Source of the DNA: Aromatoleum toluclasticum ATCC 700605
Lineage (GTDB): Bacteria; Pseudomonadota; Gammaproteobacteria; Burkholderiales; Rhodocyclaceae
NCBI RefSeq assembly: GCF_000378245.1
Contig: NZ_KB899500.1
Span: 62,001 to 126,000, forward strand
Reading direction: 5' to 3'
DNA: 64,000 nt
Shown here one piece after another: positions 10,275 to 59,134 of this stretch (its first letter is position 1; each line of letters opens with the position of its first letter). Both the position numbers and the translations under genes were made by a program. The notes under the pieces are model-generated. The model was not told the DNA's origin and made no database searches. It was given only the letters and a program-made list of their open reading frames with translations.

Positions 10275-12236
<1,962 letters not shown>

Positions 12237-12291
12237 GCTGTCTCGCTCGCTTCGTCTTGTTGATGCGCCATCATAAAACTCCGTGCGCCCC

Positions 12292-12364
12292 GAGCCTATC
12301 GAAGGACGTCGGCAGGGCCTCGACAAGCCTGTCCTGAACCCGCCGAAGGGCTCAGCCCGAACGG
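12292..12364. repeat. Degenerate intergenic repeat of the CTTCGACAGGCTCAG family
   Basis: A region of diverged copies of the dispersed repeat (for example GAAGGGCTCAGCCCGAACGG at 12345-12364 and CTCGACAAGCCTGTCCTGAA at 12319-12338). Cleaner copies are at 18761-18788 and 44433-44499. It lies in the 154-bp gap between the aacS start and the isomerase stop. Confidence 0.5.
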
Positions 12365-12390
12365 CTTGCGGCTGCCAGGTTCAGACCCGC

Positions 12391-13035
12391 CTACTCCGCG
12401 TCCGGCTGGTTCTCCGGCGCCGCCAGGCGGAAAGCCTCCAGCGTAGCGCAACGCTCCGCGATGCGCCGGACGGTTGGCATCGCAGAGAGGTCGCAGCCGA
12501 AGCGGCGCGCGTTGAAGACCTGCGGCACGAGGCAGCAGTCTGCTAGCGTCGGCGCATCGCCGTGGCAAAACGTGCCCGTGCGCTTGTCGCGCGCGAGCAG
12601 TTGCTCGACGCCCGCGAGGCCAACCTCCACCCAATGACGATACCATGCATCCCGCTGCGCGTCGCTAATGCCGAACTCGCGCTTCAGGTACTGCAGCACG
12701 CGCAGGTTGTTGATGGGGTGGATGTCGCAGGCGATGGCCTGAGCGATCGCCCGCACACGGGCGCGATCGGCCGCGCCGGCGGGCAGCAGCCCCGGCTCCG
12801 GATGCGTCTCGTCGAGGTATTCGATGATCGCGAGCGACTGCGTGAGCAGCTGCCCGTCGTCATCCAGCGTCGGCACCAGGCCGACCGGGTTGAGTTCCAG
12901 GTAGGCGGGCTGGCGCTGCTCGCCGCCGTCGCGCACGAGGTGCACCGGGACGGCGTCCCACGCGAGTCCCTTCAGGTTCAGCGCGATGCGCACACGGTAG
13001 GCGGCGGAGCTGCGGAAATAGGTGTAGAGCTTCAT
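12391..13035 (-). CDS. Glutathione-dependent maleylpyruvate/maleylacetoacetate isomerase (GST zeta class)
   Basis: Cis-trans isomerase that converts a maleyl ring-cleavage product to its fumaryl form with glutathione, before hydrolysis. 214 aa, start MKLYTYFRSS with a GGAG site upstream. The zeta-class signature SSAAYRVRIALNLKG is at residues 9-23, and the early sequence VPVHLVRDGGEQ strongly resembles NagL-type maleylpyruvate isomerase. It is the last gene of the minus-strand aromatic island, 28 bp after the TRAP large permease and downstream of the FAH hydrolase, the enzyme expected next in the pathway. MaiA (maleylacetoacetate isomerase) is the alternative; homology alone does not separate them. 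Confidence 0.88.
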   Translation of the reverse strand: MKLYTYFRSSAAYRVRIALNLKGLAWDAVPVHLVRDGGEQRQPAYLELNPVGLVPTLDDDGQLLTQSLAIIEYLDETHPEPGLLPAGAADRARVRAIAQAIACDIHPINNLRVLQYLKREFGISDAQRDAWYRHWVEVGLAGVEQLLARDKRTGTFCHGDAPTLADCCLVPQVFNARRFGCDLSAMPTVRRIAERCATLEAFRLAAPENQPDAE

Positions 13036-44499: not shown

Positions 44500-44698
44500 T
44501 ATTGCCTGCTTCACTGCCGGGTTGATGTCCACGTAGCGCCGCTGGGACTGTGCATAGCAACGGCGGTGCCATGCGGCGGAGACACGGCGCCGCGACATAT
44601 ACCCAAGTCATTTCAATGCATCTGCATCCCATGAACGGCGGGTTGTTTAGTCAATGAACGCCCCCCGCGCCCCGACGGCCGGGCGCCCCGTCGGGCCG

Positions 44699-44786
44699 TG
44701 CGACAGAAGCCCGGACATGCGACAGCGACGTCGCAGCGATGCGACACCTGTAACACCCCGAGCGACGCCACTGCGACAGTGTCGCG
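44699..44786. promoter_or_regulatory. Clustered TGCGACA sites, likely activator (UAS) array
   Basis: TGCGACA occurs at 44699-44705, 44718-44724, 44740-44746 and 44772-44778; the last is half of the palindrome TGCGACAGTGTCGCG (44772-44786). Start-to-start spacings are 19, 22 and 32 bp, near whole helical turns. The array ends 105 bp before the sigma-54 promoter, the usual distance for enhancer sites of an NtrC/AcoR-type activator, one of which is encoded at 51255. Confidence 0.7.
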
Positions 44787-44890: not shown

Positions 44891-44906
44891 TGGCACCCCT
44901 CTTGCG
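44891..44906 (+). promoter_or_regulatory. Sigma-54 promoter of the E1/E2/GMC operon
   Basis: TGGCACCCCTCTTGCG has the -24 TGGCAC and -12 TTGC elements with the exact 5-bp spacing of the RpoN consensus. It lies 94 bp upstream of the first start codon of the operon and downstream of the TGCGACA array. Confidence 0.88.
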
Positions 44907-44999: not shown

Positions 45000-46010
45000 A
45001 TGGACGCGACAGCCGGGCAACTGCTGTGGATGTACGAAAAGATGATCGAGATCCGGGAGTACGAGGAGACCATGGCCCGGGTCTATCTGGAGGGCAAGCT
45101 CCCGCCGAAGATCCAGAAGGGCCTCGCCTTCGACATCGGCGCGGGACCCGTGCCAGGCGAGATGCACCTCGCGGCGGGCCAGGAGCCGGTCGCGGTGGGC
45201 GTGTGCGCGCATCTGCGCCAGGACGACACCGTGGTCGGCGCGCACCGCCCGCACCACTTCGCGATCGCGAAGGGCGTCGACCTCGACGCGATGACCGCCG
45301 AGATGTTCGGCAAGGACACGGGGCTGGGCCGCGGCAAGGGCGGCCACATGCACCTCTTCGACCCGGCGGTGAAGTTCTCCTGCGGCGGCATCGTCGGCGC
45401 CGGCGCGCCGCAGGCCTGCGGGGCCGCGCTGGCGGCGAAGAAGCTCGGCCGGGATTCCGTCGCGGTGGCCTTCTTCGGTGAAGGCGCGGCCAACCAGGGC
45501 GCCTTCCACGAGGCGCTGAACCTCGCCGCGCTGTGGAAGCTGCCGGTCGTCTTCGTCGTCGAGGACAACAAGTACGGCATCTCGGTCGAGAAGTCCGCCT
45601 CGACGGCGATCGCCTCCAACGCCGACCGCGCCGCCGGCTACGGCATGCCCGGCGTGCTGGTCGAGCGCAACGACGCGCTGGCGGTGTTCAAGGCCGCCGG
45701 CATGGCCGTCGCGCGGGCGCGCCGCGGCGAGGGCCCGACCCTGATCGAGGTGAAGACCGACCGCTACTTCGGCCACTTCCAGGGCGACCCGGAGACCTAC
45801 CGCCCGAAGGGCGAGGCGAAGGAATTGCGCCAGCACGACCCCATCCCCGCGCTCGGCACACTGGTGCGCGACCTCGGGCTGCTGGATGCGAGCTCGGATG
45901 CGAGCTTGCGGGAACGCCTCGCCGCACGCGTGCAGGCCGCCTACGACTTCGGCCGCAACAGCCCCTACCCGCGGCCCGAGGACGCGCTGCTGCACGTCTT
46001 CGCCGAATGA
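45000..46010 (+). CDS. Thiamine-diphosphate dehydrogenase E1 alpha subunit (AcoA/PdhA-like)
   Basis: 336-aa alpha subunit of an E1 enzyme, acting with the beta subunit encoded 32 bp downstream. GAGGAGG precedes the ATG. The ThDP-binding motif is seen as FFGEGAANQG...VVEDNKYG: GEG replaces GDG and DN replaces the usual NN. About 17 residues near 31-48 (from LPPKIQKG to GAGP) are additional to the AcoA/PdhA plan known to me, before GEMHLAAGQEPVAVGV. Acetoin or another alpha-hydroxyketone, or a 2-oxoacid, is the likely substrate; the AcoR-like regulator favours acetoin-type chemistry. First gene of the sigma-54 operon. Confidence 0.88.
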   Translation: MDATAGQLLWMYEKMIEIREYEETMARVYLEGKLPPKIQKGLAFDIGAGPVPGEMHLAAGQEPVAVGVCAHLRQDDTVVGAHRPHHFAIAKGVDLDAMTAEMFGKDTGLGRGKGGHMHLFDPAVKFSCGGIVGAGAPQACGAALAAKKLGRDSVAVAFFGEGAANQGAFHEALNLAALWKLPVVFVVEDNKYGISVEKSASTAIASNADRAAGYGMPGVLVERNDALAVFKAAGMAVARARRGEGPTLIEVKTDRYFGHFQGDPETYRPKGEAKELRQHDPIPALGTLVRDLGLLDASSDASLRERLAARVQAAYDFGRNSPYPRPEDALLHVFAE

Positions 46011-46042
46011 AACCGGGCAACGAACAAGACAAGGAGACCACG

Positions 46043-47083
46043 ATGACCACTGCAACCCCAGCCAAGGCGCGCACGCTGACGATGGCGCAGGCGATTTCCG
46101 AAGCCACCGCACAGGAGATGGAGCGCGATCCGCGCGTCTTCGTGATGGGAGAGGACGTCGGCAAGTACGGCGGCATTTTCAGCGCGACCACCGGCCTGCT
46201 CGACAAGTTCGGCCCGGATCGCGTGATGGACACGCCGATCTCGGAGACCGGCTTCATGGGCGCCGCGCTCGGCGCCGCCGCCGAGGGCCTGCGGCCGATC
46301 TCGGAGCTGATGTTCGTCGACTTCTTCGGCGTGTGCTTCGACCAGATCTACAACCACATCGCCAAGAACCACTACATGTCGGGCGGCGCCTGCAAATACC
46401 CGCTGGTGATCACGACCGGCATCGGCGGCGGCTACAACGACGCCGCGCAGCACTCGCAGTGCCTGTACTCGATCTTCGCCCATGTGCCCGGTCTGAAGGT
46501 GGTCGTGCCGTCGAATGCCTACGACGCCAAGGGCCTGATGACGACCGCGATCCGCGACGACAACCCGGTGGTCTTCCTCTACCACAAGGGCATCATGGGG
46601 CTGTCGTGGATGTCCTACTTCGAAGGCAGCACCAACGAGGTTCCCGAGGAGCCCTACGCGCTCCCCTTCGGCGAGGCGCGCGTGGTGCGCGAGGGCAGCG
46701 ACGTCACGATCGTGACGCTGTCGCAGATGGTGCAGAAGTCGCTCGTCGCTGCGGAAGAACTGGCCGCGGAGGGCATCTCGGCCGAGATCGTGGACCTGCG
46801 CACGCTGGTGCCGCTCGACCGCGCCACCGTGCTGAAGTCGGTCGCGAAGACCGGGCGGCTCCTCGTCGCCGACGAGGACTACCTGAGCTACGGCCTCTCC
46901 GGCGAGATCGCCGCGCTGGTCGCCGAGCACCTCGACACCGTCCGCCTCAAGGCCCCCGTGCGCCGCCTCGCGGTGCCCGACGTGCCCATCCCCTTCAGCC
47001 GCCCGCTCGAACAGTTCGCCATCCCGCAGGTGGACAACCTAGTCGCCAGCGTGCGCGGCCTCATGAACGCCAAAGTTTATTGA
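46043..47083 (+). CDS. Thiamine-diphosphate dehydrogenase E1 beta subunit (AcoB/PdhB-like)
   Basis: 346 aa, start MTTATPAKARTLTMAQAISEA with AAGGAG upstream. The transketolase-like pyrimidine domain shows VFVMGEDVGKYGGIFSATTGL and DTPISETGFMGAALGAA, with the Glu that activates ThDP in SETG. The C-terminal domain (GSDVTIVTLSQMVQKSL; VDLRTLVPLDRATVLKSV) is standard. It forms an alpha2beta2 heterotetramer with the previous gene product, as in PDH, BCKDH and acetoin dehydrogenases. The lipoyl-domain gene starts 14 bp after its stop. Confidence 0.93.
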   Translation: MTTATPAKARTLTMAQAISEATAQEMERDPRVFVMGEDVGKYGGIFSATTGLLDKFGPDRVMDTPISETGFMGAALGAAAEGLRPISELMFVDFFGVCFDQIYNHIAKNHYMSGGACKYPLVITTGIGGGYNDAAQHSQCLYSIFAHVPGLKVVVPSNAYDAKGLMTTAIRDDNPVVFLYHKGIMGLSWMSYFEGSTNEVPEEPYALPFGEARVVREGSDVTIVTLSQMVQKSLVAAEELAAEGISAEIVDLRTLVPLDRATVLKSVAKTGRLLVADEDYLSYGLSGEIAALVAEHLDTVRLKAPVRRLAVPDVPIPFSRPLEQFAIPQVDNLVASVRGLMNAKVY

Positions 47084-47097
47084 CCCAGGAGACAGAC

Positions 47098-47343
47098 ATG
47101 ATCGACATCATCCTCGACGACGCCGTGTGGGCCGACGTCGACGAAGGCACCGAAGCCCTGCTGCAAGAGTGGCAGGTCAAGGCCGGCGACACGGTCGAAG
47201 CCGGCCAGATGCTCGCGGTGGCCGAGCTCGTGAAGACCAGCCACGAGATCTTCGCCCCCGCCGCCGGCCGCATCGCGGCGATCCAGGTGTCCGAGCAGGA
47301 GACCTTCGGCCGTGGCGCGGTGATCGCGCAGCTGGAGAGCTGA
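47098..47343 (+). CDS. Free-standing lipoyl (biotinyl/lipoyl-attachment) domain protein
   Basis: 81 aa, a single lipoyl-domain fold and nothing else. GDTVEAGQMLAVAELVKTSHEIFAPAAGRIAAI follows the normal hairpin, with the attachment lysine (residue 46) in ELVKTSHE instead of the common ETDKA. In ordinary complexes this domain is the N-terminus of the E2 chain; here it is a separate small gene between E1 beta and the E2 catalytic core. It would carry the acyl group between E1, E2 and an E3 encoded elsewhere. CAGGAGACAGAC precedes the ATG. Confidence 0.9.
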   Translation: MIDIILDDAVWADVDEGTEALLQEWQVKAGDTVEAGQMLAVAELVKTSHEIFAPAAGRIAAIQVSEQETFGRGAVIAQLES

Positions 47344-47346
47344 GCG

Positions 47347-48066
47347 ATGAGCGCGACAGCCTCGCTCGCGCCCGCGCCGGCCCCCGTCACCTCGGCAGCC
47401 GAACGCCGCACCGTGCCGCTCAGCGGCCTGCGCGGCGCGATCGCCCGCAACATGACGCAGGGCTGGCAGGTGCCGCGCGTCGCGCACGAAGTCGACGTCG
47501 ACCTGAGCCGCGTCGAGGCGCTGCGTGCCGAGCGCGCGGCGGCGGGCGAAAAGCTCAGCGTCAACGCCTTCGTCCTACGCGCGGTGGCGCTCGCGCTGCG
47601 CGCCCATCCGCGGCTCAACGCGCTGATGCGCGAGAAGGAGGTCGAGCTCGTCGAGGACATCAACCTCGGCGTCGCGGTCGCCCTCGACGACGGGCTGATG
47701 GTGCCGGTGATCCGCAACGCCGACACGAAGTCCGCCGCCGGGCTCGCCGACGAAACACGCCGTCTCGCCGAGGGCGCGCGTGCCGGCGCGCTCACCGGCG
47801 GCGCCTACCAGCGCGGCACCTTCACGGTGACCAACCTTGGCGCGGCCGGCATCGACCGCTTCAGCCCGATCATCAACCCGCCGCAGGTCGCAATCCTCGG
47901 CGTCGGCCGCACCGCGCTGCGCGCCGTCGTCCGGGACGGTGCCATCGTCGCCGCGCCGGTCGCGACGCTGACGCTGGTGTTCGACCATCGCGCGGTCGAC
48001 GGCCAGCCGGCGGCACTCTTCCTCGGCGAGATCGCGCGCCGCCTGGAACACGCGGAGTTCGACTGA
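47347..48066 (+). CDS. 2-oxoacid dehydrogenase-type E2 acyltransferase catalytic core without lipoyl domain
   Basis: 239 aa containing only the catalytic acyltransferase domain: it starts VPLSGLRGAIARNMTQGWQVPRVAHEVDVDLSRVEAL and ends with the active-site motif DHRAVDG (His about 214, Asp about 218). Neither a lipoyl domain nor a peripheral E1/E3-binding domain is present, so the chain is about half of a normal E2. It follows the lipoyl-domain gene by 3 bp, showing a split E2. It would transfer an acyl group from lipoate to CoA. Its stop codon overlaps the next start (TGATG). Confidence 0.9.
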   Translation: MSATASLAPAPAPVTSAAERRTVPLSGLRGAIARNMTQGWQVPRVAHEVDVDLSRVEALRAERAAAGEKLSVNAFVLRAVALALRAHPRLNALMREKEVELVEDINLGVAVALDDGLMVPVIRNADTKSAAGLADETRRLAEGARAGALTGGAYQRGTFTVTNLGAAGIDRFSPIINPPQVAILGVGRTALRAVVRDGAIVAAPVATLTLVFDHRAVDGQPAALFLGEIARRLEHAEFD

Positions 48067-48833
48067 TGCCGGCCGCCGCCCTCGCCTCTCTCGCGCCCCT
48101 CGCCACACCGGCGCCGCTCGGCGCCCCGGCGCTGACGCTGGCGCGCCCCTCCGCCGAGCAGGCGTGGAACGCGCGCCAGCTCGCCGCGCCGGTCAGCGCG
48201 CCGCGCGTACGGGTGTGGAGCTACCCCGCGCCCGGCGTCGTGTTCGGCTGCGCGCAGGCGGCGCTGCACGACGAGGCGGTGCGGGCGGCGCACACCGACT
48301 GCGAGCTCGTACAGCGGCGCGCGGGCGGCGGCGCGGTGCTCGTCGGCCCGTGGATGCTGTCTTCGTCCATCGTGCTGCCGCCCGGACACCGCCTGCTCGG
48401 CGGCGGCACGGTGTCGAGCTACCGCTGGCTGGGCGTGCTGCATGCGGGCCTGCTGCGCGACTTCGGCGTGCCGGCGCACGCGCTACCGCCCGACGAAATC
48501 GTGCGCCAGCCGGCCGACCCGGCCCTCGCGTGGGCCTGCTTCGGCGGCCTGTCGCCGTGGGAGGTCGTCGCCGACGGACGCAAGATCGTCGGCCTCGCGC
48601 AGCTGCGCGGGCGCCACGGCGTGCTGCTCACCACCGGCACCCTGCTCCACCACCCCGACTGGGCGCTGCTTTGCCGCGCGCTCGGCCGCCCGCCCGACGA
48701 CGCCGCCCGCCTCGCCGCGGTCACGACCTCTTGCGCCGAACAGCTCGGCACCGGCATCCATATCGAAACCCTCGCCGAAGCGCTGCAACAGATGCTCACC
48801 GACGTGCTCGGCGAACTCGAAGAAGCGGCCTAG
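48066..48833 (+). CDS. Lipoate-protein ligase A / BPL_LplA-family protein
   Basis: 255-aa member of the biotin/lipoate ligase fold family. Motifs are VQRRAGGGAVLVGP (like RRxSGGGAV in LplA) and GRKIVGLAQLRGRHGVLLTTGTLL, containing the conserved lysine of the KxxGxAQ motif. There is no separate C-terminal LplA accessory domain. It is translationally coupled to the E2 core, so it most likely attaches lipoate (or an octanoyl group) to the free lipoyl domain of this operon. A biotin-ligase role is less likely as no biotin protein is present. Confidence 0.82.
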   Translation: MPAAALASLAPLATPAPLGAPALTLARPSAEQAWNARQLAAPVSAPRVRVWSYPAPGVVFGCAQAALHDEAVRAAHTDCELVQRRAGGGAVLVGPWMLSSSIVLPPGHRLLGGGTVSSYRWLGVLHAGLLRDFGVPAHALPPDEIVRQPADPALAWACFGGLSPWEVVADGRKIVGLAQLRGRHGVLLTTGTLLHHPDWALLCRALGRPPDDAARLAAVTTSCAEQLGTGIHIETLAEALQQMLTDVLGELEEAA

Positions 48834-48863
48834 CCCCTTCCACACCACACCAAGGAGACCAAC

Positions 48864-49445
48864 ATGGACAACAAGATCCCACCCACCTCGATGCGCGTGC
48901 TCGGCAAGACCGTCACGCTCAGCCGCCGCGGCTTCCTCAAGGGCAGCGGCCTCACCGCGCTGGGCATCGGCGCGCTCTCCACGGGCACGCTGATGACCCC
49001 CGCGCGCCACGCGCTCGCCGCGGACTTCGCCAACCTCGGCGCGGACGTCGGCAAGACGCTGCTCGTGCTGGCGCGCGACATTTTCCCGCACGACAAGATC
49101 TCCGACCGCTACTACATGCTCGCGATCGAGCCTTACGACGCCAGATGCGCGACCGACGCGGCGCTGCGCACGCTGATCACCGAAGGCGTCGCCGGGCTCG
49201 ACCGCCTCGCGCGCACCCGCCACGACAAACCCTACGCCGAAGTGCCGACCGAGGCCGAGCGCGTGGCGCTGCTCTACACGATCGAGCACGGCGCCTTCTT
49301 CCAGAAGATCAAGGGCGACATGGTGACCGGCTTCTACAACAACAAGGCCGTGTGGCCCTTCTTCGGCGAGGAAGGCTCGGCCTGGGAAAAGGGCGGCTAC
49401 GTCAATCGCGGTTTCGACGACATCGACTGGCTCGCCAAGGCCTGA
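48864..49445 (+). CDS. Gluconate 2-dehydrogenase subunit 3 family protein with Tat signal
   Basis: 193 aa. The N-terminus carries a twin-arginine signal, TLSRRGFLKGSGLTALGIGALSTGTL, with cleavage likely near ARHALAAD. The rest resembles the gluconate 2-dehydrogenase subunit 3 / small gamma subunit family, which escorts the FAD catalytic subunit of periplasmic sugar and alcohol dehydrogenases. The partner GMC gene follows 29 bp later and itself has no signal peptide, so it would be exported folded by this protein. Confidence 0.85.
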   Translation: MDNKIPPTSMRVLGKTVTLSRRGFLKGSGLTALGIGALSTGTLMTPARHALAADFANLGADVGKTLLVLARDIFPHDKISDRYYMLAIEPYDARCATDAALRTLITEGVAGLDRLARTRHDKPYAEVPTEAERVALLYTIEHGAFFQKIKGDMVTGFYNNKAVWPFFGEEGSAWEKGGYVNRGFDDIDWLAKA

Positions 49446-49474
49446 CGCGCATAACAAGAGACGAGGAGACACAC

Positions 49475-51049
49475 ATGGACAAGAAATTCGCACTCGACGA
49501 CGACAGCGTCGTCGTCATCATCGGCTCGGGCGCGGGCGGCGGCACGCTCGCCGACGAGCTCACGCGCCAAGGCGTGGACGTCGTGATCCTGGAAGCCGGC
49601 AAGCACCACACGCAGGAGGATTTCGAGAACGACGAGTGGGCGATGTTCTCGAAGATCTCGTGGCTCGACAAGCGCATCTCCGCGGGCGGCTGGCACCACA
49701 CCCAGACCTACCCGAACCTGCCGGCCTGGATCGTGAAGGGCGTCGGCGGCTCGACGATGCACTGGTCGGGCGTCGCCCTGCGCTTCACGCCGCACGAGTT
49801 CCGCATCAAGAGCACCTACGGCGAGATCGCCGGCGCCAACCTGCTCGACTGGCCGGTCAGCTACGCGGAGCTGGAACCCTATTACGAGCGCGCCGAACGC
49901 AAGATGGGCGTGGCCGGCACCAAGGCGAGCGGCCTGCCGCCGATGCCGCCGAGCAACCACACCAAGGTCATCGAGGCCGGCGCGCGCAAGCTCGGCTACA
50001 AGGAGATCGTGCGTCCGGTCGCGTCGAACACCCAGCCCTACGACGGCCGCCCCGCCTGTCAGCAGATCGGCTTCTGCATGCAGGGCTGCAAGGTCGGCGC
50101 GAAGTGGTCGACGCTGTATTCCGAGATCCCGCGCGCGATGAAGACCGGCCACGCCGAGCTGCGCCCGCAGAGCATGGTGCTGCGCATCGAGCACGACAAG
50201 CGCGGCCGCGCGAGCGGCGTCCTGTATGCCGACAAGGACGGCCGCCAGCACCTGCAGAAGGCCCGCGTCGTGTGCGTCGCCGGCAACTCGATCGAATCGC
50301 CGCGCCTGCTGCTGAACTCCGCCTCCAGCCTGTTCCCGAACGGACTCGCGAACTCCTCCGGCCAGGTCGGCAGGAACTACATGAACCACACGACGGCCGC
50401 GGCGCTCACGATCAACAAGGGCCCCGTCTACATGTACCGCGGCTTCGACATCGCGACGGTGATCTCCGACGAGGTCGCGAACCGCCCCGAGCGCGGCTTC
50501 GTCGGCGGCTACCACCTCGAAGGACTGGCCCTGCACCTGCCCTTCACCGCCGCCTTCATGAAGCCCGGCGGCTGGGGGCGCGAAGTCACCTCGGCGCTCG
50601 AGCAGTACGATCACATGAGCTGCGTGTGGGTGTGCGGCGAGGATTTGCCGCAGGAAGAAAACGGCATCACGCTGCACCCGACCGAGCGCGACCAGCACGG
50701 CCTGCCGATCCCCATCGTCACCAAGACCGACCACACCAACGACGCCGCGATGCGCCGCCACGGCCTCGTCCAGTGGCGCAAGCTCTCCGAGGCTGTCGGC
50801 GCCACCCGCGTGATCGACATGCCGCCCTACCCGGCGAGCCACAACATGGGCACCAACCGCATGAGCGCCAAGCCGCGCGACGGCGTGCTCAACAAGTGGG
50901 GCCAGACCCACGACGTGAAGAACCTGTTCGTCTCCGACGGCAGCCAGTTCACGTCGAGCGGCGCCGCCAACCCGACCCTGACCATCGTCGCGCTGGCGAT
51001 CCGCCAGGCCGAGTACATCGCCGGCGCGATGAAGCGGCGCGAGTTGTGA
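49475..51049 (+). CDS. GMC-family FAD oxidoreductase (gluconate/alcohol dehydrogenase large subunit-like)
   Basis: 524 aa. FAD-binding Rossmann motif VVVIIGSGAGGGTLADELTRQGVDVVILEAG near the N-terminus, GVGGSTMHWSGVALRF, and the C-terminal active-site region SHNMGTNRMSA plus DGSQFTSSGAANPTLTIVALAIR. Cys195, Cys202 and Cys206 (C-x6-C-x3-C) resemble the Fe-S ligand region of the FAD-glucose/fructose dehydrogenase group. It is a predicted respiratory alcohol or polyol dehydrogenase, reading through a cytochrome not encoded here. Last gene of the sigma-54 operon. A dehydrogenase supplying a ketone or aldehyde to the E1 complex is inferred. Confidence 0.88.
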   Translation: MDKKFALDDDSVVVIIGSGAGGGTLADELTRQGVDVVILEAGKHHTQEDFENDEWAMFSKISWLDKRISAGGWHHTQTYPNLPAWIVKGVGGSTMHWSGVALRFTPHEFRIKSTYGEIAGANLLDWPVSYAELEPYYERAERKMGVAGTKASGLPPMPPSNHTKVIEAGARKLGYKEIVRPVASNTQPYDGRPACQQIGFCMQGCKVGAKWSTLYSEIPRAMKTGHAELRPQSMVLRIEHDKRGRASGVLYADKDGRQHLQKARVVCVAGNSIESPRLLLNSASSLFPNGLANSSGQVGRNYMNHTTAAALTINKGPVYMYRGFDIATVISDEVANRPERGFVGGYHLEGLALHLPFTAAFMKPGGWGREVTSALEQYDHMSCVWVCGEDLPQEENGITLHPTERDQHGLPIPIVTKTDHTNDAAMRRHGLVQWRKLSEAVGATRVIDMPPYPASHNMGTNRMSAKPRDGVLNKWGQTHDVKNLFVSDGSQFTSSGAANPTLTIVALAIRQAEYIAGAMKRREL

Positions 51050-55958: not shown

Positions 55959-57095
55959 TCAACTTTCACCCGCAACAAGGCGGCGTGACGTGGCCGGATC
56001 GCGGAACACCAGCGGCACGTTCCGACCGGCCCCCGACTCGACGCGGGCCAGCGCCTCGACCACCAGCCCGTGTGCCGGCGACTTGTCGCACACGGGGTCG
56101 GCCGCCGCGGGGTCGCCCGCCAGCATGTAAGCCTGGCAGCGGCATCCGCCAAGGTCCTTTTCCTTGTCGGGACAGGTCCGGCACGGCTCCTTCATCCACC
56201 CGTCGCCGCGGTAGCGGTTGAAGCCCTCCGATTCGTACCAGATCTCCCGCACACCCATCTCGCGCACGTTGGGAAATGCCAGTCCGGGCAGCATTTTCGC
56301 CGTGTGGCAGGGCAGCGCGGTGCCGTCCGGCGTAACGGTGAGGAAGACGTTGCCCCAGCCGTTCATGCACTTCTTGGGCCGCGTCTCGTAATAGTCGGGT
56401 ACGACGAAGAAGATGCGGATGCGGTCGCCGTACTTCTCGCGGTATTCGTTGGTCACGCGCTCCGCGCGTTCGAGCTGCTCACGGGTCGGCAGCAGCTGGT
56501 CGCGGTTCAGCAGCGCCCACGAGTAGTACTGGCTGTTCGCAAGCTCCAGGTATTCCGCACCGAGTTCGACCGCCATCTCGATGATGCGGTCGATGTAGTC
56601 GATGTTCAGGCGATGGATCACGCAGTTCATCACCATCGGCCAGCCGTTGTCCTTGATCAGCGCCGCGACGCGCTGCTTGAGGTCGAAGGTGCGGGTGTGC
56701 GACAGGAAGTCGTTGAGTTCGCGCGTCGAATCCTGGAAGGAGAGCTGGATGTGGTCGAGGCCGGCGGCCTTCAGCGCCGCGGCGCGCTCCTCGGTGAGGC
56801 CGACACCGGAAGTCAGGAGATTGGTGTAGAAGCCCAGCCGGTGCGCCTCGGCGACGAGCACCTCGAGGTCGTCGCGCAGCATCGGCTCGCCGCCCGAGAA
56901 GCCGCACTGCACGCTGCCGGCGGCGCGCGCCTCGCGCAGCACCCGCAGCCAGTCGTCGGTCGAGAGCTCGGGCCCGCTCGTCGCGAAATCGACCGGGTTG
57001 TAGCAGAAGGCGCAATGCAGCGGGCAGCGGTAGGTGAGCTCCGCCAGCAACCACAGCGGCGGGCCGGGCTGGGCCGGAATGCTTGCAGCGGACAT
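55959..57095 (-). CDS. pqqE: PQQ biosynthesis radical SAM enzyme PqqE
   Basis: Links Glu and Tyr of PqqA by a C-C bond, the first step of PQQ synthesis. 378 aa, start MSAASIPAQPGPPLWLLAELTYRCPLHCAFC (frame open further upstream but family start is here). Radical SAM motif CPLHCAFC and a SPASM domain with Cys clusters in CMNGWGNVF, CHTAKML, CRTCPDKEKDLGGCRC and CDKSP. Last gene of the minus-strand pqqABCDE order, 11 bp after pqqD. Needs PqqD as peptide chaperone. Confidence 0.95.
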   Translation of the reverse strand: MSAASIPAQPGPPLWLLAELTYRCPLHCAFCYNPVDFATSGPELSTDDWLRVLREARAAGSVQCGFSGGEPMLRDDLEVLVAEAHRLGFYTNLLTSGVGLTEERAAALKAAGLDHIQLSFQDSTRELNDFLSHTRTFDLKQRVAALIKDNGWPMVMNCVIHRLNIDYIDRIIEMAVELGAEYLELANSQYYSWALLNRDQLLPTREQLERAERVTNEYREKYGDRIRIFFVVPDYYETRPKKCMNGWGNVFLTVTPDGTALPCHTAKMLPGLAFPNVREMGVREIWYESEGFNRYRGDGWMKEPCRTCPDKEKDLGGCRCQAYMLAGDPAAADPVCDKSPAHGLVVEALARVESGAGRNVPLVFRDPATSRRLVAGES

Positions 57096-57106
57096 CGCGA
57101 GTCCCC

Positions 57107-57382
57107 CTACCTTTCGATCCATTGCTGGGCGCGCGCGAGTTCGAGGAACTTCGCGACGTCGTCCGCGAGCCCGCTCGCCCCGAACGCCTGCTCCAGATCC
57201 GCGACGATCGCCGGCACCGTGCGGCTGCCGTCGCAGCGGCGCATGATCTCGCCCGCGCTCTGGTTGAGCTTCACCATCCCCTCGGGGTACAGCAGTACCC
57301 AGGCACTCTGCGCCTCCTCCCACTGCAGGCGGAAGCGGCGCGACACGCGCGGACAGGCATCGGCGGCGACCGCGGCGCTCAT
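57107..57382 (-). CDS. pqqD: PQQ biosynthesis peptide chaperone PqqD
   Basis: 91-aa small protein that binds PqqA and presents it to PqqE. Family features [40 protein letters not shown] and the helical C-terminus are intact. The start overlaps the pqqC stop by 4 bp. Separate gene, not fused to PqqC or PqqE as in some bacteria. Confidence 0.94.
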
Positions 57383-58176
57383 GACTTCGGCCCCCTGATT
57401 TCCATCTCGCACTGGCTCAGCATGATCGCGTCGGCGAGCGCCCACAGCACGTCGAGCTTGAACTGCAGGATCTCCAGTGCCCGCTCCTGCAAGGCACGCG
57501 AGCGGCTGAAGTAGTCGAGCGTGAAGCGCAGGCCGTGGGCGACGTCGCGCCGCGCCTGCGTGAGGCGGTTGCGGAAGTACTGCAGGCCCGCGGTGTCGAC
57601 CCACGGGTACTGCTGCGGCCAGGTGTCGATGCGCTGCTGGTGGATATGCGGCGCGAAGAGTTCGGTCAGGCTCGACGCGATCGCCTCCTGCCACGGCCGC
57701 TGGCGCGCGAAATTGACGTAGGCGTCCACCGCGAAGCGCGCTGCCGGCACCACAAAGCGCAGCGAGGTGACGTCGTCGCGCGTGAGGCCCACCGCCTCGC
57801 CGAGGCGGATCCACGCTTCGATGCCGCCGGGGTCCTTGATGCCACCAATCTCGTAGCCATCGTGATCGAGGATGCGCTGGATCCACTCGCGGCGGATCTC
57901 GCGGTCGGGACAGTTCGACATGATCGCGGCGTCCTTCACCGGAATCGCGATCTGGTAGTAGAAGCGGTTGGCGACCCAGCCCTGCAGCTGCGCGCGCGTG
58001 AGCTTCCCCTCGGCCATCATCACGTGAAAGGGGTGATGGATGTGGTAGCTCGTGCTCTTGCCGCGCAGGCGGGCCTCGAATTCCTCGCGGCTCAGCGGCG
58101 GCGCATCGCCCGGACAGGCTTGCAGGGCCCGCGCGGCAGCATCCTCGATCGCGACGTCGAAATCCATCTTGCTCAC
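57379..58176 (-). CDS. pqqC: Pyrroloquinoline-quinone synthase PqqC
   Basis: Cofactor-free oxidase that performs the last ring closure and oxidation of PQQ synthesis. 265 aa, near the usual 250. Conserved helical-bundle segments [43 protein letters not shown] and [27 protein letters not shown] are visible; His and Arg active-site residues fall in them. It follows pqqB after 43 bp. Confidence 0.95.
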
Positions 58177-58219
58177 TCCTTGCCGTGTTGTGCCAGCCGT
58201 CCGCGGACGGGACAGGCGC

Positions 58220-59134
58220 TCAGAACGACAGCTCCATGCCGTCGTAGGCCACCTCGATGCCGTGCGCCGCGAGTTGCGCGCGTTCGGCGCTGTCCTCGTC
58301 GAGGATAGGGTTGGTGTTGTTGATGTGGATCAGCACCTTGCGTGTGCTCGTGGGCAGGCGGTCGAGCCATTCGAGCATGCCGCCGGCGCCCGACTGCGGC
58401 AGGTGGCCCATCGCGCGCGAGGTCTTCTGCGAGGCGCCCAGGCGGATCATCTCGTCGTCGGTCCACAAGGTGCCATCGACGAGCACGCAGTCGGCCATCT
58501 GCATCGTCGCCCACACGTGCGGCTCCATCTCGCCCAGGCCGGGCGCGTAGAACACCCGCCGCCCGCTCCGGGCATCGACCAGCGTCACGCCGATGTTGTC
58601 GCCGGGCCGCGGACGGTCGCGGTGCGGCGAATACGGTGGCGCGTTGCTCGTGAGCGGCAGCGCCTCGAATCCGACGCCGGGCACGCCGTGCATCGCGAAG
58701 GCGCCGAAAAGCGGCACCTCCCTCCAGTCGAGGCCGCAGTAATGCGACAGGACGTTGAAAAGCGGATTGCCGGCGGAGAGGTCTTCCCTCACCGCGGCGG
58801 TGCACCACAGCTGATGCGCAGCGCGGTGCTCGCGCAACATCATCAGGCCGGTCGTGTGGTCGATCTGCGCGTCGATCAACACGATGGCGCGGATCGCCGT
58901 GTCGCGCAGCGCGCGCGCCGGCTGCAACGCGGGAAAGCTGCGGATCTGCTGCAGCACATCGGGCGAGGCGTTGAACAGCACCCAGTTCTCGTCGTCGCCG
59001 CTCACCGCGATGGACGACTGCGTGCGAGCCGTCGCGCGCACCGTTCCACGTCGCACGCCGTCGCAGTTGCGGCAGTTGCAGTTCCACTGCGGGAATCCGC
59101 CGCCCGCCGCCGAACCGAGCACCCTGATCTTCAC
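58220..59134 (-). CDS. pqqB: PQQ biosynthesis protein PqqB
   Basis: 304 aa, MBL-fold protein proposed to act as hydroxylase/oxygenase on the PQQ intermediate. Start [28 protein letters not shown] is diagnostic, with the CxCxxC Zn site; later motifs [16 protein letters not shown] and HINNTNPIL are typical PqqB. 58 bp separate it from pqqA. Confidence 0.95.

Follow-up and report, generated by a model that had tools for sequence, protein, structure and literature searches.

Closest described systems

Textbooks explain channelling in the 2-oxoacid dehydrogenase superfamily by lipoyl domains that are tethered to a giant E2 core. Enzymes of this superfamily consist of a thiamine diphosphate (ThDP)-dependent dehydrogenase (E1), an acyltransferase (E2), and a dihydrolipoyl dehydrogenase (E3). 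The subject here is a seven-gene operon of Aromatoleum toluclasticum ATCC 700605, which encodes E1 and E2 together with a free-standing lipoyl protein, a lipoyl-attachment enzyme, and a two-subunit flavoenzyme of the GMC family. It occupies positions 45000-51049 of a stretch of 64,000 nucleotides (contig NZ_KB899500.1, 62,001 to 126,000, forward strand), which is called the window and in which the operon's coordinates are counted. Its parts were named by Pfam and NCBIfam profile matches. No description of the module was found in the open-access literature.

Acetoin dehydrogenase, encoded by aco operons and controlled by AcoR, has E1alpha and E1beta subunits of the same superfamily and an activator like that of the window. 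Five acetoin-type references were compared, of which four have annotated acetoin or butanediol genes next to them and that of Klebsiella was placed by similarity only. Upstream sigma-54 sites are present in three of the five operons scanned, and in two no E3 gene was seen within the stretches viewed. In contrast, the window has separate lipoyl and E2 genes, an E1 clade of its own, and no AcoC of the NF011457 type, and it adds the attachment enzyme, a subunit with a twin-arginine translocation (Tat) signal, and the GMC enzyme.

Pyruvate dehydrogenase (PDH) and branched-chain 2-oxoacid dehydrogenase complexes share with the window the E1_dh and 2-oxoacid_dh families, the lipoyl domain, and the His-Asp motif of E2. 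The window differs in the lack of a fused multidomain E2 and of a matched docking domain, in a shorter E2 C-terminus, and in sigma-54 control.

Glycine cleavage H protein (GcvH) and LbpA of sulfur oxidisers are small free lipoyl carriers with an attachment enzyme encoded nearby (for LbpA, the available part of PMC6067878). Unlike these, carriers of the window type are encoded next to E1 and, in most loci, next to the acyltransferase core of an E2.

GMC acetol dehydrogenases of the Msil_1641 type (gmcAB) comprise a large GMC chain and a small subunit like gluconate 2-dehydrogenase subunit 3, as in the window. Deletion of Msil_1641 in Methylocella silvestris makes acetol accumulate and abolishes growth on acetone, as stated in the available sections of PMC7364539, and verrucomicrobial GMC enzymes are proposed to oxidise acetol likewise in those of PMC8630023 and PMC12235487. 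The window GMC differs from gmcAB in that it lies on its own branch and within an E1/E2 operon, which has no VOC or cytochrome c gene.

Haloferax operons reportedly encode separate lipoyl proteins. Two haloarchaeal relatives of the window operon have separate E1alpha, E1beta, and lipoyl genes (Haladaptatus in this order, Halobaculum the same plus E2) and in this resemble oadhAB2 and oadhAB3 of Haloferax volcanii, a likeness of layout that involves no comparison with the HVO genes. The accessible text of PMC8305020 assigns no substrate to oadhAB2/oadhAB3. The two haloarchaeal loci viewed differ from the window in having no annotated attachment enzyme, GMC gene, or sigma-54 activator alongside.

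A lipoyl carrier separate from E2

An earlier annotation of these letters by a model, here the original prediction, had proposed a sigma-54-driven set of seven genes with an E2 split into two chains, a ThDP complex of the 2-oxoacid dehydrogenase type, and a Tat/GMC alcohol dehydrogenase of respiratory type. The gene set is borne out, with each frame in its predicted place and each part matched by Pfam or NCBIfam. The split holds as well: the 81-aa lipoyl protein is separate, and 2-oxoacid_dh is the sole Pfam match in the 239-aa E2 chain, with no lipoyl or subunit-binding (docking) domain matched beside it in Pfam or NCBIfam. The placement of the ThDP enzyme, more closely in the acetoin/pyruvate dehydrogenase superfamily, the respiratory type of the GMC enzyme, and the sigma-54 promoter are likewise supported. 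The Tat/GMC assignment stands in part, as the GMC enzyme has a Tat-signal partner and carries no such signal in its own chain.

A gap of 3 bp separates the lipoyl gene from that of E2, and the latter overlaps the attachment-enzyme gene by one base. Residues D213, H214, R215, D218, and G219 of E2 are invariant in 18 of 18 aligned sequences; the E2 of locus L171, which is not part of this alignment, has N where the others have the second D. The domain match and the DHRxxDG motif mark the chain as a predicted acyltransferase catalytic domain. Lysine K46 of the lipoyl protein, the predicted lipoyl site, is invariant (21/21 aligned), and a stand-alone protein of this kind would qualify as a glycine-cleavage-like carrier.

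The split is a trait of the E1 clade to which the window belongs. A closed lipoyl frame of 78-131 codons follows E1beta in all 43 clade loci (profile search within 700 bp), whereas outside the clade the lipoyl domain lies in a frame running off the stretch in 13/13 loci and a stand-alone gene in 0/13. The profile was made from 21 clade rows, and so its matches there arise by construction, but the closure of the frame does not. Loci absent from the tree were placed in the clade by E1beta identity. The best 80 loci of a contig scan, classed by frame analysis, comprise 16 split E2 genes, 61 fused to a lipoyl domain, and three undecided. The split ones are L035-L047 and the archaeal L067, L076, and L083, which lie outside the clade. 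The original prediction had taken the split for a peculiarity of this operon, an idea that the 43 clade loci and these three archaeal ones rule out. Near L067 there is a lipoyl-like frame of 92 codons, and none was found at L076 or L083.

The median distance from the DHRxxDG-type motif to the C-terminus is 20 residues in split E2 chains and 24 in fused ones. A hydrophobic C-terminal tail is present in 1/36 split and 32/61 fused E2 rows, a descriptive contrast whose tail pattern was devised for this comparison, which leaves out 1/37 split and 7/68 fused rows for an inexact motif or open end and counts two duplicate loci among the split rows. Such tails link E2 trimers into large cores. Because they are mostly missing here, the E2 assembly may be small.

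Three annotated E3 proteins used as queries find no match in the window, nor in 43 of 45 clade rows. At the L044/L163 locus a protein 37.5% identical to E3 is encoded about 1.6 kb upstream on the opposite strand. The predicted absence of E3 thus stands for the window but is not distinctive, and it is ruled out as a diagnostic by the two acetoin operons without E3 in the stretches viewed. Elsewhere the genome has seven places with Pyr_redox_dim, three of them near E2 genes, and E3 would be borrowed from outside the operon.

The attachment enzyme is modelled with an LplA fold (predicted local distance difference test, pLDDT, 88.7; best fold match 2art, an LplA), and phmmer finds no match for it in the PDB. 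Residues R84, G87-G89, C158, and K173, the last being the candidate catalytic lysine, are invariant in 15 of 15 aligned sequences. C158 pairs with a cysteine of BH3822 (2p5i) and faces a gap in 2ars. A catalytic cysteine is a feature of LipL/LipM transferases, and the alignment of C158 suggests that the enzyme named LplA in the original prediction may be such a transferase. Relatives 47-52% identical occur in L121, L123, and L125-L127, stretches in which the window lipoyl protein has no match.

Table 1. Features of the operon and its surroundings in the window.
Feature	Position	Strand	Basis
Probable upstream activator sites	44592-44785	.	GCGACA at 44592, 44700, 44719, 44741, 44773; TGTCGC at 44780
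Sigma-54 (-24/-12) promoter TGGCACCCCTCTTGC	44891-44905	+	Exact match
E1alpha, ThDP-dependent dehydrogenase subunit, 336 aa	45000-46010	+	Pfam E1_dh 5.7e-74; own clade in E1 tree
E1beta, 346 aa	46043-47083	+	Transket_pyr, Transketolase_C; NF006667 subfamily above cut-off
Free-standing lipoyl carrier protein, 81 aa, predicted lipoyl lysine K46	47098-47343	+	Biotin_lipoyl 2.4e-12
E2 catalytic core, 239 aa	47347-48066	+	2-oxoacid_dh 9.6e-72, residues 19-236
Lipoyl-attachment enzyme, LplA/LipB superfamily, 255 aa, possibly LipL/LipM type	48066-48833	+	LplA-B_cat 8.7e-13
Small subunit, gluconate 2-dehydrogenase subunit 3 family, 193 aa	48864-49445	+	Gluconate_2-dh3 + TAT_signal_seq
GMC flavoenzyme large subunit, 524 aa	49475-51049	+	GMC_oxred_N, GMC_oxred_C; near Msil_1641-like acetol dehydrogenase group
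AcoR-like sigma-54-dependent activator, 647 aa	51255-53198	+	GAF, Sigma54_activat, HTH_8

E1 phylogeny

In a tree of joined E1alpha and E1beta (46 taxa, 646 columns), the window groups with the other module loci, and the clade that includes the haloarchaea has a support of 81. The five acetoin-type references and the single PDH sequence included fall outside this clade. Identity to the acetoin-type references is 41-44% for E1alpha and 48-53% for E1beta. The lipoyl domain that an acetoin system would carry on its E2 chain is here a gene of its own, and the genome has no acetoin-type AcoC (NF011457) at E <= 1e-60.

E1alpha falls far short of the PDH equivalog thresholds, with 286.6 bits where 393.85 are required and 212.5 where 411.35 are, and the multidomain E2 with docking domain that goes with PDH is lacking. 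E1beta exceeds the cut-off of NF006667, a subfamily model named PDH E1 beta, and the best PDB match of E1alpha is mitochondrial PDH.

Relatives and distribution

The original prediction called for a search for the same gene order in other genomes. The order recurs, and the module is real. It is found in L035-L044, L047, L154-L161, L163, and L164, with extra genes inserted ahead of the GMC pair in L039. L153 and L162 keep it up to the sequence end, inside GMC. Plasmids of Phaeobacter inhibens and Gemmobacter fulvus also carry the seven-gene order, while the GMC pair precedes E1alpha in L171 and follows E2 after a gap in L172. The nearest named relative of the window operon is that of Azoarcus sp. 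Aa7, with 93-98% identity by protein. The Sphingomonas module has no ligase annotated alongside. In Rhodococcus opacus 1CP the core of four genes is accompanied by lipA and lies some 8 kb from tpdB, a gene of tetramethylpyrazine breakdown (PMC4647570, PMC6099782). This breakdown passes through acetoin-like C4 intermediates, according to PMC4647570.

This is a patchy accessory module. At E <= 1e-120, and with its own genome counted each time, E1beta is present in 16/199 family, 6/399 order, and 6/398 phylum genomes, and it is absent from the five genomes of the same genus in the family sample. AcoC is present in 19 of the same 199 family genomes and never together with E1beta (zero overlap against 1.5 expected), a mutual exclusion that is not significant (P = 0.19).

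Promoter and activator

The window has two copies of the sigma-54 consensus TGGCAY-N5-TTGC where 0.25 would be expected, the second at 44557-44571 on the minus strand. With at most one mismatch, a site lies 79-131 bp 5' of E1alpha in all 24 betaproteobacterial operon rows, which are 22 distinct loci (window, L035-L044, L047, and L153-L164, with L035/L156 and L044/L163 as duplicates). E1beta is 97-99% identical within each of the pairs L154/L155 and L158/L159. No site was found within 400 bp in the 22 other E1-clade rows, the GMC-bearing L136, L137, L171, and L172 among them.

Six copies of GCGACA/TGTCGC within 360 bp make up the densest spot of the window. At least two such hexamers lie 5' of the operon in 20 of the 22 betaproteobacterial loci and in 2/10 others, against 0.17-0.32 expected by mononucleotide shuffling. 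The motif was derived from the window sequence, and thus the window, which is included in the count, is no independent case.

The activator gene begins 205 bp after GMC. Over its full length the product shares 48% identity, and in its sensor half 46%, with the regulator adjoining the Chelatococcus acetoin operon; for a partial regulator of Paracoccus kondratievae, at a locus with a 2,3-butanediol dehydrogenase, the values are 46% and 37%. The sensor half is 30% identical to that of the Methylocella tundrae regulator. By sequence, the window has the AcoR-type activator and sigma-54 promoter of an acetoin dehydrogenase system, the more distant Enterococcus regulator (28%) being an exception to this likeness.

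The GMC flavoenzyme and its small subunit

The Gluconate_2-dh3 match of the small subunit is barely above threshold (24.7 against 23.4 bits). The Tat-signal residues R21 and R22 are invariant (11/11), the model (mean pLDDT 71.6) has no fold match at E <= 0.001, and phmmer finds no match in the PDB. The best solved relatives of the GMC chain are the large subunits of fructose and glucose dehydrogenase.

The operon GMC is 62% identical to an enzyme of Methylocella tundrae (L143), whose neighbourhood matches that described for Msil_1641 and which is a likely Msil_1641 orthologue. Comparison with the Msil_1641 group was made through this enzyme, the tree having no Msil_1641 sequence itself. Identity is 55-62% to seven Msil_1641-type enzymes and a second copy on contig C22 of the same genome, and 50% to an Arthrobacter enzyme; it then drops to 36% with none between (50 of 661 plasmid records sampled). 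The operon GMCs form one branch beside or within the Msil_1641-type group, in which the alphaproteobacterial and betaproteobacterial enzymes join at a support of 61 and several deep nodes have 31-61.

Eight GMC clusters without E1 were viewed in the upper group, the more distant L187 being left out of this count. A VOC/glyoxalase gene adjoins the small subunit in seven of them, a c-type cytochrome is present in five, and a multicomponent monooxygenase in three. No VOC match was found among the GMC neighbours in the window.

Other observations concern GMC surroundings elsewhere. At L035, a VOC-family protein with a signal-peptide-like start is encoded directly 3' of GMC (11810-12421), which suggests a periplasmic enzyme. 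The C22 cluster (L128 5793-10501; C22:15792-20500) comprises a sodium:solute symporter, a small subunit, GMC, a ribbon-helix-helix protein, and a VOC protein under the glyoxalase I cut-off. In M. tundrae (L143 10344-12737), a 797-aa AceE-like ThDP protein, far under the aceE cut-off, lies beside the acetol-type GMC. PQQ (pyrroloquinoline quinone)-dehydrogenase relatives of two different kinds lie upstream in 12 of the 22 betaproteobacterial loci and not beside the window operon. The window has the PQQ biosynthesis genes pqqE, pqqC, and pqqB, all above NCBIfam cut-offs, at 55959-59134 on the minus strand, 5-8 kb past the operon end.

Substrate and mechanism

The reading we prefer, about evenly poised between belief and doubt and a shade towards doubt, is that the operon serves the breakdown of a small alpha-hydroxyketone or its vicinal diol, most likely acetoin/2,3-butanediol, with a diffusing lipoyl carrier like GcvH. 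An acetoin-like substrate is proposed because the activator resembles the Chelatococcus and P. kondratievae acetoin regulators, because the R. opacus version lies in a tetramethylpyrazine neighbourhood, and because the genome has no AcoC of its own.

The AcoR-like activator would sense the compound, bind the repeated TGCGACA-type sites, and switch on transcription from the sigma-54 promoter. The GMC enzyme, exported to the periplasm with its Tat-signal partner, would oxidise the alcohol there and pass electrons to the respiratory chain. Cytoplasmic E1alpha/E1beta with thiamine diphosphate would cleave the C-C bond next to the ketone and load the acyl group onto the lipoyl arm of the 81-aa carrier. 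This carrier, to which the LplA/LipL-like enzyme would attach the lipoyl group, may then diffuse to the E2 core, where acyl-CoA would form, and afterwards reach a housekeeping E3. The order of these steps, like the substrate, the binding of the activator, the diffusion of the carrier, the electron route, and the borrowed E3, is inferred, while gene content and order, their conservation, the promoter, and the split are read from the sequences.

Several points weigh against this reading. As acetoin E1 falls outside the E1 clade of the module, the transfer of a substrate by homology is weak. The hexamers are missing beside the Chelatococcus acetoin operon and occur once beside that of P. kondratievae. 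The activator shares just 28% identity with its counterpart at the Enterococcus acetoin operon (22% in the sensor half) and 25-28% with the regulators next to the module in Phaeobacter, Gemmobacter, Roseibium, and Paracoccus seriniphilus. It is therefore not common to the whole clade, and these misfits lower the acetoin reading slightly and raise its acetol rival. The nearest experimentally tested GMC relative, reached through L143, points to acetol, and 12 of the 22 distinct betaproteobacterial operon loci have a VOC gene. It is plausible that GMC feeds the ThDP enzyme, but versions of the module without GMC exist (Pseudomonas L045/L046, Roseibium, and Paracoccus seriniphilus). The supposed action of the carrier free in solution is a weak point of the scheme. 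Seven loci (L122, L124, and L165-L169) have E1alpha-E1beta-lipoyl-ligase clusters with no adjoining E2; three genes after and one before one of these, and genes beside two others, seem unrelated. Six of the seven genomes have E2 domains and in one none was found; 13 of the 15 domains lie in frames of at least 391 aa and two at contig edges.

An acetol/methylglyoxal pathway is unlikely. The periplasmic GMC would convert acetol to methylglyoxal, and the ThDP enzyme would convert hydrated methylglyoxal to formate and acetyl-CoA, replacing the glyoxalase route. It gains from the closeness of the GMC chain to the M. tundrae enzyme and its Msil_1641-type neighbours, given the acetol phenotype reported in the available part of PMC7364539, from the AceE-like protein adjoining that enzyme, and from the VOC genes of the seven E1-less clusters and 12 operon loci. 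Against it, acetol oxidation is apparently covered by the C22 GMC of the same genome, which is 70% identical to the M. tundrae enzyme and has its own small subunit and VOC gene; the operon GMC therefore probably has another substrate. The operon GMCs sit on a separate branch, the sensor half of the activator is closer to those of two acetoin-operon regulators, and the window GMC has no VOC match beside it.

An accessory dehydrogenase for pyruvate or branched 2-oxoacids, with an E2 merely broken into two chains and an unrelated GMC, is improbable. E1 and E2 do belong to the PDH superfamily, with E1beta above the NF006667 cut-off and mitochondrial PDH as the best PDB match of E1alpha, but the E1alpha scores far under the PDH equivalog cut-offs, the sigma-54 control, the patchy presence in 16/199 family genomes, and the distance of the E1 clade from the tree's one PDH sequence all speak against it.

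That the GMC pair and the ThDP module are separate catabolic steps under a common promoter, with the ThDP substrate coming from another source, is quite improbable. The GMC-less modules of Pseudomonas, Roseibium, and Paracoccus, the seven loci with E1, lipoyl, and ligase genes alone, and the eight plasmid stretches that contain GMC but lack E1 fit such a separation. In contrast, 22 distinct betaproteobacterial loci retain the promoter and the seven genes as a unit, the sequence of two of them stopping within GMC, and the GMC pair accompanies E1/E2 in four loci at the alpha-/gammaproteobacterial level (L136, L137, L171, and L172).

Use of a resident PDH or 2-oxoglutarate dehydrogenase E2 by the carrier and E1, with the small E2 redundant or regulatory, would suit the seven E2-less loci and the long E2 frames of their genomes but is highly improbable given the catalytic residues kept in all 18 aligned split E2 chains (L171, outside the alignment, with its N).

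Meaning of the module

Beyond the preferred acetoin-type reading, the module may represent, as a somewhat doubtful generalisation, a disassembled system of the 2-oxoacid-dehydrogenase type across bacteria and haloarchaea. Its lipoyl carrier would diffuse freely, its E2 would build no large core, shuttling in the manner of GcvH would replace tethered channelling, and some bacteria would drop the E2 gene. A conserved, patchy module that keeps the chemistry and unties the arm would, if this is true, be a direct test of what tethering does. It would also give a function to proteins whose annotation goes no further than lipoyl domain-containing protein, E2 subunit, or GMC family oxidoreductase.

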